IMG/VR virus record: IMGVR_UViG_3300047365_000343
Coordinates: 1-33,862 of that record
Direction: 5' to 3' (one strand)
DNA: 33,862 nucleotides
DNA from: a virus
Position numbers and translations under genes: made by a program. Positions 158-7,423 of the stretch are shown here, piece after piece. Numbering within the stretch: position 1 is the first letter of the stretch; every line of letters starts with the position of its first letter. The notes beneath the pieces were generated by a model that made no database searches, was not told the origin of the DNA, and saw only the letters and a list, made by a program, of their open reading frames with translations.

Positions 158-1921
158 TTACTGGTCTATTGTATTAGTATTTGGGAATGCTCTTCCTGGT
201 CCCCAAATAATTCTTACTGCGCCTGAAGCACCAGTGCGACCAGAGTTATGGTTAGCTCCACCAGCTCCACCACCATATGATCCACCAGCTCCACCTGAAT
301 GAACTCCACCATTAGTTACTCCAGTACCACCAGATCCATTACCACCACCTCCACCACCCCATCCGGAAGTGCCACTAGTTCCACCAGCACCATTGAAACC
401 TTGCCCTAAGATACCGACGCCACCGCCACCGCCACCTTTTCTTTGGGAGTCATTACTATCGGTGTCGTGATGAGCAGCTCCTCCTCCACCACCACCACCA
501 GCACCGGCACTACCACCAGTATATCCACCAGCATTACCACCATTACCAGAGTAACCGCCAGCTCCACCACCGCCGCCACCCCAATAGTCGCCAGAATGAG
601 AGAGTGACCCATTTCCGCCATTTCCGCCACCATCACCATAATAACCACCACCAGTACCAGCAGTATTCGTAGCAGTATTACTACCAGCACCTCCACCTAG
701 TCCACTGGCATAAGAATTATTTGACGCTGCCCCAAAATATGAACCTTGTCCACTTGCACCAACAACAACTGAGTAATTATATCCTGGAGTTACAGGAATA
801 TTATTTTTCCAACCGAGACCACCGCCTCCACCACCTTGAGTTCCACTTGCTCCTCCTCCGCCAACAGCAACAGCACAGACACTTGTTACTCCTGCTGGAG
901 CAGTCCATGTAAAGCTTCCTGTAGATGTATATTCTACTTGTCCTGCGGGATTGGAAATAATATTAATGTCTATAGAATTATCGGGATCATTACCATCTTG
1001 ATTAAAGTTTCCTTGAGCATCCGAAAATGAATTTGACGGAACCAAGATAGTTGCAGTAACACCAGCAGTTGCGACCGGGGTGAAAAGAGCAGTATACGAG
1101 AAACCACTACCAGTAAAGTTAGAAAGGGAACCGTTAGTAACAGTGATATCACCGACTACAAAATCTGTGGAACTTTCCGACAGGTCAAAAGATACGACCA
1201 TGGTCTCACTAACCCCAACAGAAGTTTGTGGGGAGGTAATGGCAACAGTGGGAGGAGTTGCATCGGGATTAGATACTAATACTCTACGTACTGGTCTGAT
1301 AGTAGCAGTTTCGTTTTTAGAGTATCCGTATACAAGTCCATTTCCACCATTGGTAGGGAACCATTTTCCAGCAGTAGTTGTATTTCCAGTATTATTACAA
1401 GAATCTGATGAAGATGTCCAAAGTTCTCCAATAGCATTTGAAGTTCCTGCACTAGTCGAATCAAATTCTTCAGAACTACCTTGCCACCCGGATGAATTTT
1501 TTAGATTAGTATATATCACACCCGCTTCTTGATGAGCCGGAATATACCAGTCATCAAATACAGTTCCATCTATTGTAATTGATAATGCTTGAACTGTTTG
1601 AAATACCGGATGCGTTGAACTAGCACCGGATAGAACGCTAGTATAAGTATTAAAATACCCATCCCACTCTGCATTAGGAGCTGTTGTGGTTCCTGGATAT
1701 GTGTGATTACCGTCGCATGATGCTGCGTTTTTATACTGTCCTTGAGATTGAGAAACCGATTTTTCGGCAATGTATATCTCATATATGGCTCCAGCGCCAT
1801 CTAAATTAGTAAATGACTCAGATCCTGTTGTAAGAAGACCAGCATAATATCCTCCCTGACTAGGAACCCACTGACCAATTCGCAGACTCCCAGATCCGCT
1901 TAGTAGCATTGATTGCATCAT
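158..1921 (-). CDS. Glycine-rich tail fibre adhesin with DUF1566-like and Ig-like domains
   Basis: A 587-residue three-part protein. Residues about 20-215 resemble the DUF1566/Lcl family: a 'DDWYIPAHQEAGVIY' segment is followed by 'GELWTSS' and ends 'IRPVRRV', the typical order in that family, some members of which have a C-type-lectin-like fold. Residues about 222-322 look like a bacterial Ig-like domain ('PPTVAITSP', 'FVVGDITVTNG'). From 328 on the chain is dominated by GGGGG runs and ends 'RAFPNTNTIDQ'. Polyglycine tips of this kind form the receptor-binding end of T-even-type adhesins (gp38). The gene starts one base after the stop of the 772-residue fibre (TGATATGATG; a second ATG follows at once), which suggests translational coupling and partnership with that fibre. 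Role as host-recognition tip is inferred. Confidence 0.75.
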   Translation of the reverse strand: MMQSMLLSGSGSLRIGQWVPSQGGYYAGLLTTGSESFTNLDGAGAIYEIYIAEKSVSQSQGQYKNAASCDGNHTYPGTTTAPNAEWDGYFNTYTSVLSGASSTHPVFQTVQALSITIDGTVFDDWYIPAHQEAGVIYTNLKNSSGWQGSSEEFDSTSAGTSNAIGELWTSSSDSCNNTGNTTTAGKWFPTNGGNGLVYGYSKNETATIRPVRRVLVSNPDATPPTVAITSPQTSVGVSETMVVSFDLSESSTDFVVGDITVTNGSLSNFTGSGFSYTALFTPVATAGVTATILVPSNSFSDAQGNFNQDGNDPDNSIDINIISNPAGQVEYTSTGSFTWTAPAGVTSVCAVAVGGGGASGTQGGGGGGLGWKNNIPVTPGYNYSVVVGASGQGSYFGAASNNSYASGLGGGAGSNTATNTAGTGGGYYGDGGGNGGNGSLSHSGDYWGGGGGGAGGYSGNGGNAGGYTGGSAGAGGGGGGGAAHHDTDSNDSQRKGGGGGGVGILGQGFNGAGGTSGTSGWGGGGGGNGSGGTGVTNGGVHSGGAGGSYGGGAGGANHNSGRTGASGAVRIIWGPGRAFPNTNTIDQ

Positions 1922-1922
1922 A

Positions 1923-4241
1923 TCAAATTAACCCCGAACCAGAAATATAACCAGTAGTAGCGTTGACAAACAATATAGTACAAACACCTCTTGCAGATAA
2001 TACTTTAGCACCCGTAGAACCATCAGTTGCAAGATATAAACTCATACCAGTTCCTTGGATAATATCTAAATCACTTGCGGAATTATTTACAATACTAACC
2101 ATATCACCTGCGGAAAAAACATTGGGGTTAACAGTATAATCGGTACTTGCATCGGTATTCATTACAAATTTTCCTGCATCACTAGCAACTAATGTATAAG
2201 TTCCGTTTTGAGGATTATTTCCTAAACTTCTTAACGGACCCATCGCATCAGATATAGATCCACTAACACCTAAATCACCAGTAATATCTACACCGCTAGT
2301 ATTGGTCTCCAATTTTTTTAAAGTTTGATAATATAATTCCGCAGATCCAGTTGAACTACCTACGTAAGTAATGTGTCCACCAGAATACAATCCAAGTGAA
2401 CTGCGAGCTTCAATGTTTAGACCTCCGCCACCAACACCGCCATTGTTGTCAGTGTTTCTAATATATGCTTCATTAGATCCAGCAAAAATTTTAAGGTAGT
2501 TGTTATTTCCAGCAGAAATATCCAACTCACCACCATTACTAACATCACCTAATGTGATTTTATTATTGGTTTGAGCACCTCTACCAGTTACACTATCAAG
2601 CGTGTCGTCTGCAGCAATAGCACTTTGAACGACGATTGTTCCAATCATCCCTGTATGACTAGCAACCCCACATTGATAATAAAAAGTTCCTGTACTTCTT
2701 GGTTGCCAAGAAACCGTATTAGTTCCTTCTCCAACAGCTGATGGATTACTTACACTAACACCACCATCAGATACCCTAATATACATTGGGTGTCCACCAC
2801 CCAAATTAGTATTATCAAATATAAGTGTATCCCCTGCTTTAATAGTTATTGTGGGATCCGATGCATTAGTATGAGTGGTAACTCGATCTGTTCCTGAAAT
2901 ACTATAATCACTACCATTTCCTGAATTGGTAGTTATGTTAATAGTAATACCTTCAACACCAATAGGTTGATCTATCCATGCATAATCTGTGCCATTCCAA
3001 CTAAGAACATTGCCTTGAGTGGGGTTAGATTGATTTAAATGTGTATCTACATCAGCATCTGTATAACCAGAAATAGAAACCCAATCAAAATTAGTTCCAT
3101 CCCATCCCAATACTTGTCCTGTAGTTGGAGATCCACCTGCTTCAGCAACATTATATACAATACTATATGGTGTCCTGTATTCATAATTATTATCTCCGTC
3201 AACCCATTGCAGTAAATCACCATTATTTGGATTTGTATCAGATTTTACATCAATTAAATGTTGAATACTCGGGTATGTGTTTATCCACCCAGAACCATCA
3301 TATGCAAGTAGCTGATGTTGTGTTGCAGATGTAATTGTTACATCCGTTACATTATTTAAAGCAAAACTACTAACCCCACCTGTAAAAGTTGTCCAAGTAA
3401 CATTTCCTGCGCCATCACTGGTAAGAACCTGAGAACTACTTCCATTGCTGGATGGGTAAGTTAAACCTCCAGCGGTAAGATTACCTGTAGTAAGAGTACC
3501 TGTAGTGGTAATATCTTGTGTAGTTGTTGCTCCACTTGTTAAGACAGCATCTAATGTTTGTGTTTCTGTTGTTAAATATCCAGCAGTACTATGATCACCC
3601 CATCCATATGCAGTATCCCAGTCAGATGAATTATTTGTTGTGATGCTATATCCACCTGAACCATCTGTAGTCATCAGACCAGCAGTGGTAAAATCTCCAT
3701 CAAGAACTACATCAGCATGTGAAGTTTCTGATGTTAAATATCCAGCAGTACTATGATCACCCCATCCATATGCTGTATCCCAAGTACCTATCTTGGCAGC
3801 AGTAACACCAGCAGCATCACCAAGAGATGTTAGATACCCAACAACAGCATGATTACCCCAACCATACGCAGAATTCCAGTTAGTAGAATTACCACCCGTA
3901 GCAGTTATTGTTCCATTAAATGTAGAACTTCCTGGAGCAAGAGTTAATTCTATAGTAGTAGCATCGCTATAGAATGAAGAAGTTCGGATACTGTTAGCAA
4001 CCACTTGTCCAGCAATATCAATATTACTACCAAGAGTATCAGTTATATTATATTGATTAAGATCTAAGTGACCGGAAAGCCTTGGCGATGGATCATTAAC
4101 TAAATTAACCTGATTAAAAGTAACTGCGCCCGCAGCAGCATTCCAACTGGATCCATCCCAAGAATAGACAATACCAGCAGATGTATGAGTAAAAGACCCG
4201 TCTGTTGGTTGCCCTGCTGTTGCGGGAAAATTGATTGCCAT
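1923..4241 (-). CDS. Modular tail fibre with embedded cupredoxin-like domain
   Basis: 772 residues. The N-terminus (MAINFPATAGQPTDGSFTHT, then 'YSWDGSSW') is a common phage fibre start. Shaft modules follow: three copies of a WDTAYGWGDHSTAGYLT-type repeat (about 121-138, 153-171, 207-225), an 'LTAGGLTYP...VLTSDGAGNVTW' module and an 'LSWNGTDYAW' module. Residues about 430-540 form a cupredoxin-like domain: 'ITIKAGDTLIF', 'GGGHPMYI', 'TGTFYYQCG', 'ASHTGMIGTIVV', with candidate copper ligands His484, Cys524, His529 and Met532. The last 100 residues ('GTYTLVASDAGK' onward) are paralogous to the C-terminus of the 799-residue fibre. A strong Shine-Dalgarno sequence (GGAAGGAGC) and a CTAAATAAC late-promoter-like motif precede the ATG. 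Probably a long tail fibre whose tip is the downstream glycine-rich protein. Confidence 0.8.
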   Translation of the reverse strand: MAINFPATAGQPTDGSFTHTSAGIVYSWDGSSWNAAAGAVTFNQVNLVNDPSPRLSGHLDLNQYNITDTLGSNIDIAGQVVANSIRTSSFYSDATTIELTLAPGSSTFNGTITATGGNSTNWNSAYGWGNHAVVGYLTSLGDAAGVTAAKIGTWDTAYGWGDHSTAGYLTSETSHADVVLDGDFTTAGLMTTDGSGGYSITTNNSSDWDTAYGWGDHSTAGYLTTETQTLDAVLTSGATTTQDITTTGTLTTGNLTAGGLTYPSSNGSSSQVLTSDGAGNVTWTTFTGGVSSFALNNVTDVTITSATQHQLLAYDGSGWINTYPSIQHLIDVKSDTNPNNGDLLQWVDGDNNYEYRTPYSIVYNVAEAGGSPTTGQVLGWDGTNFDWVSISGYTDADVDTHLNQSNPTQGNVLSWNGTDYAWIDQPIGVEGITINITTNSGNGSDYSISGTDRVTTHTNASDPTITIKAGDTLIFDNTNLGGGHPMYIRVSDGGVSVSNPSAVGEGTNTVSWQPRSTGTFYYQCGVASHTGMIGTIVVQSAIAADDTLDSVTGRGAQTNNKITLGDVSNGGELDISAGNNNYLKIFAGSNEAYIRNTDNNGGVGGGGLNIEARSSLGLYSGGHITYVGSSTGSAELYYQTLKKLETNTSGVDITGDLGVSGSISDAMGPLRSLGNNPQNGTYTLVASDAGKFVMNTDASTDYTVNPNVFSAGDMVSIVNNSASDLDIIQGTGMSLYLATDGSTGAKVLSARGVCTILFVNATTGYISGSGLI
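3571..3620. repeat. 50-nt direct repeat, copy 1 (fibre shaft)
   Basis: This stretch matches 3733-3782 at 49 of 50 positions. It encodes the WDTAYGWGDHSTAGYLT shaft repeat of the 772-residue fibre. Its last 28 bases (3593-3620) are also identical to 7168-7195 in the neighbouring fibre gene. Confidence 0.9.
3733..3782. repeat. 50-nt direct repeat, copy 2 (fibre shaft)
   Basis: Second copy of the shaft-encoding repeat, 162 nt (54 codons) from copy 1 and differing from it at one position. A third, more diverged copy lies near 3830-3880. Confidence 0.9.
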
Positions 4242-4261
4242 TTCTAAAATGCTCCTTCCGT

Positions 4262-4270
4262 GTTATTTAG
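4262..4270 (-). promoter_or_regulatory. Late-promoter-like CTAAATAAC motif
   Basis: The minus strand reads ACTAAATAACAC in the 54-nt gap between the two fibre/tip pairs. It keeps the TAAATA core of the T4 late consensus but lacks its first TA. The same nine bases occur ahead of gp25 (29196-29204). A GGAAGGAGC Shine-Dalgarno sequence follows before the ATG at 4241. Promoter activity is inferred from recurrence and position. Confidence 0.5.
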
Positions 4271-4295
4271 TATGTCAATGTAGGACTGATTTAAT

Positions 4296-5024
4296 TTAAA
4301 CGGGCCAATCTAACCGCACATATCCTCCACCTCCAGTGCCACCACCCCAGTTTCCTGAACCGGTTCCTCCACCATAGTTTCCACCGTTGGGTGCATAGTT
4401 GTATCCATCAGTTCTCCCATTCGTTCCAGCGGATCCACCATTGCGACCTCCACCACCAGGAGATCCGTCATACCCATACGAAGCACCACCGCCACCACCA
4501 CTCGGAACGGGGAAGCCACTACCAGTTCCAGCGGCACCGCCCCCTGCTCCATTATTTGCTAATGCATATCCTCCATATCCACCGTTGCCGCCGCCAGTAC
4601 CACCTAGGTTTCCTGCCCCCATATCAGATCCATTACCTCCAAAAAATGAACCTACATTACCTGATCCACCACCACCACTACCACCACCAGTGGTGGTGGT
4701 TGGGTTTCCTCCGAATGCATATGCAGATCCATTATCACCAACAAAGATACTGCTACCACCGGCAGCGACGCCACTACCACCAGCGCCAACGATTACTTGG
4801 TAAGATGTTCCTTGAGTTACATTTACAACTGAGTGAGCAGCACCGCCTCCGCCACCGCCGCCGCGATTACTAGACATACCTCCAGAACCTCCTCCAATTA
4901 ATCTTACTCTTATCATCATAGTTGCTGGCGCGACCCAATTAAATGTTCCGCTATCTGTGTATATTCGGAAACCGGGATCAGGAGGACCATCACCACTATA
5001 ACCAAGTAAAATTTGTTGCGTCAT
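4296..5024 (-). CDS. Glycine-rich fibre tip / adhesin
   Basis: 242 residues. A short N-terminal part ('GFRIYTDSGTFNWVAPA') leads into long polyglycine stretches (GGGGGGGAAH, GGNGGYGGYA, GGGTGGGGYV), ending 'VRLDWPV'. The block 'GTFNWVAPATMMIRVRLIGGG' followed by 'SYQVIVGAGGSG' parallels 'GSFTWTAPAGVTSVCAVAVGGG' and 'NYSVVVGASGQG' of the 587-residue adhesin, so the two tips are paralogues. Polyglycine helices make the receptor-binding end of T-even gp38-type adhesins. The start overlaps the stop of the 799-residue fibre (TAATG) and has a strong Shine-Dalgarno sequence (CGGAGGT) 8 nt upstream. It is probably the tip of that fibre; receptor unknown. Confidence 0.7.
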   Translation of the reverse strand: MTQQILLGYSGDGPPDPGFRIYTDSGTFNWVAPATMMIRVRLIGGGSGGMSSNRGGGGGGGAAHSVVNVTQGTSYQVIVGAGGSGVAAGGSSIFVGDNGSAYAFGGNPTTTTGGGSGGGGSGNVGSFFGGNGSDMGAGNLGGTGGGNGGYGGYALANNGAGGGAAGTGSGFPVPSGGGGGASYGYDGSPGGGGRNGGSAGTNGRTDGYNYAPNGGNYGGGTGSGNWGGGTGGGGYVRLDWPV

Positions 5025-7423
5025 TAACTTATACCTCCGCCAGCAATATACGCAATACTACTACCACCACCTTCCCCATAAAGAATTGAGCAAACAGTTC
5101 TTGCTGCTAGGGTAAAGTTGCCACTACTTCCATCAGCAGCGTTGTAAAGCGTCGTTCCGCTACCCTGAGCAATAGTTACACTACTAGAAGAGTGTGCAAT
5201 AATCGTAATCATGGCTCCAGTACCAAACACATTGTTGGGAATTGTGATTGTATGAGCACCATTAACTCTTACTTGTTTGCCTGCATCGCTAGAAACTAAG
5301 GTATAATTGCCAGTACCTCCACTTGATGTACCAAGATATCTTACGTCTCCAATTGAGTCACTGACTGTGCCATAAAATACAGAGTTGCCGTCATCATCAA
5401 CAGTAACAATGAAAGCACTGTTGTCAGATTTACGAATCTCAACGCCACTAGTGCCACCATAGAAATAGGTTTTGCCGCTATCGACTTGCAATACGTTATG
5501 TCCACCACCTGTTATGTAACTATTTACATTAGGTAAATCAAGACTTCCAGTTACTGTAGCACCAGTAGTAGTGGTTTCAAATTTCTTGTTACTGTCGTAA
5601 TAAAGTTCTGCAGCACCAGATGAAGTAAGTTTTAAAGCAGTTTTATCTGCATTAAGACCCGCCTTCATTGTGGTAACATTTGCAGTTATATCAAGGTTGT
5701 TGCTACCAGCAACAGCAATTTTTAAGTTGTTAGCACCATCCCGGTATATTTGTACGTTAGCATCATTAATGACGACACGTGTTGCAGTAAGATCACCAAC
5801 TTCAATATTATTAGATGTAATATTACCTCTACCAGTTACAGTGTCAAGTGTGTCTACCTCGGCGGCACTACCTCCGCCAGTTTGATCTGCTACCCAAGCA
5901 TAATCAGTTCCATTCCAACTTAAGATTTCTCCGGAAGATGCACCACTAGTATTCAAATGTACATCAACACCAGCGTTGATAGTTGATTGCAGTCCACCAA
6001 TAGATGCTCCACTGAAACTAATGGTAGTATTTTGGAAGTCAATAGAAGTTCCTGCTGCATTAATACTACCACCAAAATCAAGACTCAAACTTTCAGCAGC
6101 AATCCTACCAGTAACATTAACACCCTGCGCGGAAGTTTCAAATCTTTTTCCGTTAGATCCATAATGCAACTCAACTGCGCCGCCATTGAGAATTGATATT
6201 CCGCCACTAGCACCACTACCTTTTAGATAAACATCATATGATCCAATAGTACTAGTATTGGGTGCAATAGTTAAACTTCCTGTTGTACCATTGCTATTCC
6301 AATCAAAGAAAACATCAGGATGTCCAGATGCATGTCCAGTTCCAAGTCCTAATCCTGTGCCATCTTTTAGTACAAGATAGTTTGTTTGAGAACCTGGATA
6401 TCCAGACACACTAGCGTTGTATACAATGCCGTCGTTTGGAGTCCAATTGGTTCCATCATACGCAAAAAATTCACCAGTTGCTAAACCAGTTGTATCTACA
6501 TTTCCGATCTCATTAATATCAGTTATACCACCAGCAGCAAGTGGTGGGGAAGCATCAACCCACTGAGAACTATCTGCATCTTCATAGTAAACTTTAAGGC
6601 GTCCTTTATCACTTTCCCACCACAAATCACCCGCAACAGGCGAACTAGGGATAGTATTACTAATACTTACTACTCCTGTTCCCGGTGTTAGTGATTGCCA
6701 AGTTACTGCACCAAGACCATCACTTGTAAGTAACTGTCCTGAAGATCCATTAGTAGTTGGATAAGTTAAACCACCAGCAGTCAGAGCACCAGTGATTGTT
6801 ACACCATTAGTAGTGGTTTCAATTCTTGGATTGCCATCATAGTAAAGATTTACAGAATTGTCCTCGGTTGCTGTAATTAAAAACTCAGAACCGACACGAT
6901 TCTTAACGAATAATTGATTAGTAAAGAGGTTAAGCTTACCATTACCAGATTTTTTAATGTGGGTATCGTTGAATCCGGCGGAATTATCATGATATATTTT
7001 TAACTGTAATTGAGAAGCACCAGCTACACCGTCTTGTCCAAAAAGTTCAATATTATCAGTAGTAAGTCCTCCAACTTCAATATCATTCGTTGTAACTGCA
7101 CCTCTACCAGTTACACTATCGAGTGTATCGGATGATGATATTGACGTTAAATAACCTGCTTGACTGTGATCACCCCATCCATATGCAGTATCCCAATTGG
7201 ATATCTGAGCATTAGTAAGAGGTTTGTATTGTGATAGATTAGGTGGGGTATATGAAAATATCCCGTTAGTATTATTATAAGATAATCCTGCGGTCCCTAC
7301 AGCATTTACAGTAACCGAAATAGAATCCAATGTCACCGCATTACTTAAATCGCTAGCGATTTCGTTGATCTCAATTCTCTGTTCATCTAGACTAAATGTC
7401 TTCGCTACGTTCCTAAGTGCCAT
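5024..7423 (-). CDS. Modular tail fibre protein (first fibre of the pair)
   Basis: 799 residues beginning MALRNVAKTFSLDEQRIEIN. One WDTAYGWGDHSQAGYLT shaft repeat lies at about 77-93. Modules shared with the 772-residue fibre follow in a different order: 'DTLDSVTGRG' and 'DTLDTVTGRG', 'LTAGGLTYP...LLTSDGLGAVTW', 'ILSWNGTDYAWV', and three 'xxELYYDSNKKFETTTTG'-type modules. The C-terminal 100 residues ('NYTLVSSDAGKQV' onward) are paralogous to those of the other fibre. There is no cupredoxin-like segment. It overlaps the preceding small gene by 11 nt and its stop overlaps the start of the 242-residue tip. The repetitive beta-rich sequence is typical of trimeric fibre shafts; attachment point on the virion is not shown. 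Confidence 0.8.
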   Translation of the reverse strand: MALRNVAKTFSLDEQRIEINEIASDLSNAVTLDSISVTVNAVGTAGLSYNNTNGIFSYTPPNLSQYKPLTNAQISNWDTAYGWGDHSQAGYLTSISSSDTLDSVTGRGAVTTNDIEVGGLTTDNIELFGQDGVAGASQLQLKIYHDNSAGFNDTHIKKSGNGKLNLFTNQLFVKNRVGSEFLITATEDNSVNLYYDGNPRIETTTNGVTITGALTAGGLTYPTTNGSSGQLLTSDGLGAVTWQSLTPGTGVVSISNTIPSSPVAGDLWWESDKGRLKVYYEDADSSQWVDASPPLAAGGITDINEIGNVDTTGLATGEFFAYDGTNWTPNDGIVYNASVSGYPGSQTNYLVLKDGTGLGLGTGHASGHPDVFFDWNSNGTTGSLTIAPNTSTIGSYDVYLKGSGASGGISILNGGAVELHYGSNGKRFETSAQGVNVTGRIAAESLSLDFGGSINAAGTSIDFQNTTISFSGASIGGLQSTINAGVDVHLNTSGASSGEILSWNGTDYAWVADQTGGGSAAEVDTLDTVTGRGNITSNNIEVGDLTATRVVINDANVQIYRDGANNLKIAVAGSNNLDITANVTTMKAGLNADKTALKLTSSGAAELYYDSNKKFETTTTGATVTGSLDLPNVNSYITGGGHNVLQVDSGKTYFYGGTSGVEIRKSDNSAFIVTVDDDGNSVFYGTVSDSIGDVRYLGTSSGGTGNYTLVSSDAGKQVRVNGAHTITIPNNVFGTGAMITIIAHSSSSVTIAQGSGTTLYNAADGSSGNFTLAARTVCSILYGEGGGSSIAYIAGGGIS
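7146..7195. repeat. Fibre shaft repeat shared with neighbouring fibre gene
   Basis: Homologous to the 50-nt repeats at 3571 and 3733. The 28 bases 7168-7195 are identical to 3593-3620. It encodes the single WDTAYGWGDHSQAGYLT copy of the 799-residue fibre and gives a patch of DNA identity between two adjacent fibre genes. Confidence 0.85.

Follow-up and report, generated by a model that had tools for sequence, protein, structure and literature searches.

A cupredoxin domain with a conserved, predicted type 1 copper site in tail fibres and baseplate connectors of marine cyanophages

The window, i.e. the whole 33,862-base stretch of the viral record IMGVR_UViG_3300047365_000343 that was analysed, has its nucleotide matches among Synechococcus phages and marine viruses. 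It encodes a tail fibre, and around it lie genes for baseplate wedge proteins and for giant structural proteins like those of T4-like cyanophages. The features of this fibre and of its sister fibre are the following.

1923..4241, minus strand: tail fibre open reading frame of 772 amino acids, carrier of the cupredoxin (open reading frame list and PHROG matches)
2625..2948, minus strand: cupredoxin domain, fibre residues 432-539 (sequence, profile and structure comparisons)
2616..2963, minus strand: stretch modelled with AlphaFold2, fibre residues 427-542 (pLDDT 94.2)
2790..2792, minus strand: codon of His484, first predicted copper ligand, within GHPMYI (residue check, alignment, conservation)
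2670..2672, minus strand: codon of Cys524, predicted copper ligand, within YYQC (residue check, alignment, conservation)
2655..2657, minus strand: codon of His529, predicted copper ligand (residue check, alignment, conservation)
2646..2648, minus strand: codon of Met532, predicted axial copper ligand (residue check, alignment, conservation)
2949..3425, minus strand: stem modules preceding the domain, fibre residues 273-431 (blastp to gp9)
5024..7423, minus strand: sister fibre of 799 amino acids without the cupredoxin domain (open reading frame, PHROG, whole-record search, fibre comparison)

The fibre matches the PHROG tail fibre families phrog_9729 (residues 143-346) and phrog_23731 (534-703) and, between them, the gp9 family phrog_677 (397-540). 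A scripted check found H, C, H and M at residues 484, 524, 529 and 532, respectively. The initial annotation had read residues 430-540 or so as a cupredoxin, and the best bounds prove to be 432-539. A search of the whole 33,862-base record returned no second copy at E <= 10, leaving the single one at 2625-2948, and the sister fibre aligns with residues 146-326 and 543-771 of the fibre and skips the cupredoxin, so that the absence of the domain from the sister, as first described, holds.

Other genes of the window deserve mention in their own right. The protein encoded at 29392-30027 matches the PHROG ferredoxin family phrog_3704, an auxiliary metabolic gene adjoining the baseplate genes. The protein at 158-1921 carries a bacterial Ig-like domain (Big_12), a weak similarity to Lcl_C and a glycine-rich C-terminal domain resembling that of the 242-residue protein at 4296-5024. 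On the plus strand, a His-rich open frame at 4391-4873 lies antisense to a glycine-rich gene and is most likely an artefact of the codon composition of that gene.

Both sequence and structure comparisons place the domain among the cupredoxins. Searched alone against the PDB, its sequence matched rusticyanin (E 1.7e-4) and plastocyanin (0.017), and in the rusticyanin alignment all four candidate ligands fall on the conserved His, Cys, His and Met of that protein, in agreement with the ligands first proposed. A profile of 64 family members matched amicyanin best (3.6e-6), followed by plastocyanin (6.5e-6) and further blue copper proteins. The AlphaFold2 model of residues 427-542 has a mean pLDDT of 94.2, a pTM of 0.89 and nine strands. 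Its best PDB match in Foldseek is rusticyanin (1.3e-6); in VIA-align, the first cupredoxin domain of a Hyphomicrobium nitrite reductase ranks at the top (Z 11.5, rmsd 2.1 A, 98 residues), followed by laccase domains and rusticyanin (Z 9.0, 30% identity). Model, Foldseek and VIA-align thus concur on a Greek-key beta-barrel, the fold whose absence would have spoken against a cupredoxin within the fibre, and together with the PDB and profile matches they rule out a chance resemblance. It is also unlikely that the four predicted ligands fail to converge in space, given the structural and sequence alignments. Scores against the Pfam family Copper-bind (PF00127) vary: the window domain reaches 15.0 bits, under the curated cut-off of 21.2. 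The family was matched individually by 61 of the 64 members at E <= 1, and proteins of P-SSM2 and of two further records (L025 and L005) exceed the cut-off with 21.5-23.8 bits.

The initial annotation pictured a one-off insert and suggested a survey of cyanophage fibres; the survey replaced this picture with that of a widespread modular family, found also in connectors and protease-like proteins. By tblastn the domain was recovered from 255 phage records, named as Synechococcus phage, Prochlorococcus phage, cyanophage or marine virus, and a second query added one actinobacterial lake phage. Two pattern scans of IMG/VR confirmed 393 and 227 relatives, 80 of each being retained. Every one of 17 records searched by profile holds between one and five copies, and the distinct copies divide into 72 at the very end of their protein and 169 internal ones. 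Its carriers are fibres of marine cyanophages, giant wedge proteins, S8-protease-like proteins and, at the C-terminus, gp9-type connectors; among the predicted structures of viral proteins that contain it, some bear the annotation tail fibre, baseplate connector or S8 peptidase. The C-terminal 100 residues of gp9, the connector of baseplate wedge and tail fibre, consist of this domain in 11 phages (S-SSM5, syn9, P-RSM4, P-TIM40, S-RIM8, ACG-2014a, P-SSM3, P-RSM6, S-SZBM1, S-H35 and S-SM1). The closest relative of the window fibre (record L025) shares its first 35 residues and residues 248-772, and has a second cupredoxin nearer the N-terminus. Within one frame, profile matches number up to six, in fibres and giant proteins.

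Several members are noteworthy for their setting. Outside the cyanophages, an intact copy lies beside collagen-like fibre genes in Actinomycetia phage DSL-LC01 (L223:3131-4501). Two cyanophage S8 (subtilisin-like) protease proteins end in the same domain (L021:2309-4315 and L023:2288-4333). Five or six consecutive matches per protein were recorded at L099:900-10319, L145:464-3586 and L107:863-3937, an arrangement which suggests a structural protein lined with a series of copper-type beads.

In S-CREM2 no copy was found in the parts of the fibre and baseplate regions that were read, and the domain is therefore dispensable for some cyanophages. A scan of cellular genomes, weak because limited to a pattern, returned only a distant protein from a Thermoleophilaceae MAG, and as such addresses a cellular origin only weakly. 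A recent capture of a host or phage plastocyanin is unsupported: plastocyanins score far below the members of the phage family, and they differ in the loop and in having His-Asn where the phage domain has His-Pro. No description of the domain was found in the open-access literature; the family is apparently undescribed, though Pfam already recognises several of its members, making it visible in databases. The finding is larger than first stated and concerns a conserved, probably virion-borne cupredoxin family of marine cyanophages.

The predicted metal site is conserved almost without exception. His-Cys-His-Met is kept in 191 of the 193 distinct copies that could be read at each of the four positions, counts to be taken with the proviso that strongly decayed copies may escape the profile step, and in 49/50 representatives less than 60% identical. 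Because the Cys was part of two search patterns, and profiles are biased towards their own consensus, the search was repeated with the ligand columns hidden, and 172 of 174 copies retained the set. As a further check on sampling bias, gp9 sequences were retrieved by tblastn without any pattern, and the C-termini of all 11 phages have the site intact. Among well-filled columns, conservation is highest at the four ligands, which are invariant in two alignments of relatives (A1, which is diverse, and A4). Cysteine is otherwise scarce in the proteins of the family, accounting for 0.67% of residues outside the domain. On these grounds the domain is probably under selection to bind a metal, likely copper.

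The two exceptions are a copy lacking one His and a copy lacking all four ligands. The latter (L146, open reading frame 1322-4336, residues 657-747), the one representative of the 50 without the set, has T, S, S and A in their place; its domain persists next to a second, intact copy within one protein and so offers a natural control for the role of the metal site. The joint loss argues for ligands that act as a unit. The persistence of the domain argues against their being retained only to maintain the fold, and suggests that the fold can exist without them.

The Cys-x4-His-x2-Met spacing of the window domain was correctly noted at the outset to differ from the Cys-x2-His-x4-Met of plastocyanin (PetE). 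The suspicion drawn from it, that the site is altered or does not bind copper, finds no support, given the conservation of the ligands and the confinement of the x4 loop to a single clade. Among the intact copies, 181 have Cys-x2-His-x2-Met, nine, including that of the window, have Cys-x4-His-x2-Met, and the sole copy with Cys-x2-His-x4-Met is a short PetE-like protein. In a tree built from few columns and with many forks unresolved, one branch with support 92 has all the x4 copies on the same side. The loop of the window is a two-residue insertion restricted to one clade and, judged from the alignments with rusticyanin and amicyanin, combines two known spacings, the Cys-x4-His of the former and the His-x2-Met of the latter. 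A second signature is a Pro directly after the first His, present in 177/182 of the copies found by the simple pattern; in the same count, x2 members never have Pro two residues after the Cys. Plastocyanin shows the reverse placement. Plastocyanin usually has a backbone hydrogen bond to its Cys sulphur, which a Pro after the first His removes; His-Pro is also found in multicopper oxidases. The arrangement in the phage family would shift the position of this bond on the sulphur, and would resemble the sites of multicopper oxidases.

Comparison with known systems sets the domain apart from each of its nearest relatives. Rusticyanin, the best PDB match by sequence and by Foldseek, shares the four aligned ligands and Cys-x4-His, but has His-x4-Met where the fibre has His-x2-Met, and works as a free electron carrier in the periplasm of an iron-oxidising organism. 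Amicyanin, the top profile match, has the Cys-x2-His-x2-Met loop of most phage members; it is a soluble electron carrier, and the window domain has two extra residues from Cys to His. Plastocyanin and the phage PetE (phrog_515, a weak PHROG match to the domain at 0.0056) share fold and ligand set, and differ in the loop and in the Asn after the first His, which in the phage domain is nearly always Pro. PetE is moreover a stand-alone photosynthesis protein, and separate short PetE-like copies occur in S-BM3 (a 113-residue frame with Cys-x2-His-x4-Met) and P-SSM2 (a 131-residue frame).

A further likeness is to cyanophage gp9 (phrog_677), in which the same cupredoxin family forms the end of the protein, with the preceding stem modules also alignable. 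By blastp, the C-terminal half of gp9 from S-SSM5 and P-RSM4 (gp9 164-410/412) matches fibre residues 273-540 at about 30% identity, so that the stem modules may have moved together with the bead. The gp9 profile matches over its positions 275-410 of 412 and not along its whole length; the window fibre differs from gp9 in its N-terminus and in the further modules that follow the domain. Metal in a phage fibre has a parallel in the iron-binding HxH tail fibres of T4 (gp37) and alterophage R22Y, for which a role in attachment is likewise proposed; there the iron sits on paired His residues of a trimeric needle, with no cupredoxin barrel (PMC11705849).

Taken together, these observations make it fairly probable that a complete type-1-copper cupredoxin forms a bead between stem modules of the fibre, serving as a metal-locked stiffening or adhesion element. 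The domain would fold metal-free in the host cytoplasm and take up copper from the periplasm or from seawater, at or after lysis. The bound metal would lock the Cys-His-Met loop and stiffen the domain at junctions between fibre and baseplate parts or at the contact of the fibre with the cell, so that the bead would be structural and adhesive, and not an electron-transfer enzyme of the infected cell. Homology is the ground for assuming that virions contain this fibre; the binding of a metal, its identity as copper, its loading outside the cytoplasm and its part in stiffening or docking are what we infer. Three observations count against the copper bead: the score of the window domain under the Pfam cut-off, the His-Pro of most members and the S-CREM2 regions without the domain. 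Of the phages concerned, S-SM1, with the domain in gp9, has had its virion proteome studied, and a virion proteome has also been published for S-CREM2. The idea that the copper is a nutrient delivered to the host was dismissed, as some tens of atoms per virion would be trivial.

Among the alternatives to a copper-locked bead, it is rather unlikely that the site holds another metal, zinc or iron, or provides a Cys-based crosslink. Cupredoxin sites do bind Zn and other metals in vitro, and virion assembly takes place in the cytoplasm, away from the compartments that handle copper. The set of His, Cys, His and Met, their order and their loop are nevertheless those of type 1 copper proteins, and the axial Met, needless for zinc or a crosslink, is as strictly kept as the His residues. 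Very unlikely is the reading of the domain as a metal-free, Ig-like decoration, a cupredoxin fold with a relic site that holds no metal in the virion. Phage fibres often bear non-catalytic beta-sandwich beads, the window domain stays under the Pfam cut-off, and the two exceptional copies lost one His or all four ligands; a relic would however be expected to decay, yet the site persists across divergent representatives and under the ligand-masked search, in columns that are the most conserved of those well filled and in proteins otherwise poor in Cys.

It is also unlikely that the loaded domain acts as a Trojan horse, offered to an outer-membrane metal receptor or porin of the host for attachment. 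Copper in cupredoxins is buried and tightly held, unlike a siderophore-like offer, and we know of no host receptor matching a copper-loaded domain. In its favour are the location in fibre and connector, the several copies per phage and the precedent of the HxH tail fibres of marine phages, for which iron has been proposed to take part in attachment (PMC11705849); the C-terminus of gp9, on the other hand, is annotated as the joint between fibre and baseplate, and no role as a receptor-binding tip is known for it. Finally, a switch linked to redox or light, in which the oxidation state of the copper would alter conformation or docking and tie adsorption to redox near a photosynthesising host, appears highly improbable. 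Type 1 copper is redox-active, but its sites change little upon reduction, and to our knowledge there is no cell-surface electron donor. Light-dependent adsorption has been reported for marine cyanomyoviruses (PMC2984593), but has so far no link to the domain. It is distinctly unlikely that redox-active type 1 copper in cyanophage fibres and gp9 connectors controls, through its state or occupancy, fibre deployment or adsorption and in this way offers a route to light-dependent adsorption.

The domain is a marker for tail modules that are shuffled among connectors, fibres and protease-like proteins, many of which are annotated as hypothetical. If the sites are loaded, copper centres are part of the attachment machinery of many oceanic T4-like cyanophages. 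This would be a class of metal protein new for virions, as judged from the open-access literature, and would allow a direct test of the effects of trace metals or redox on phage adsorption or decay.
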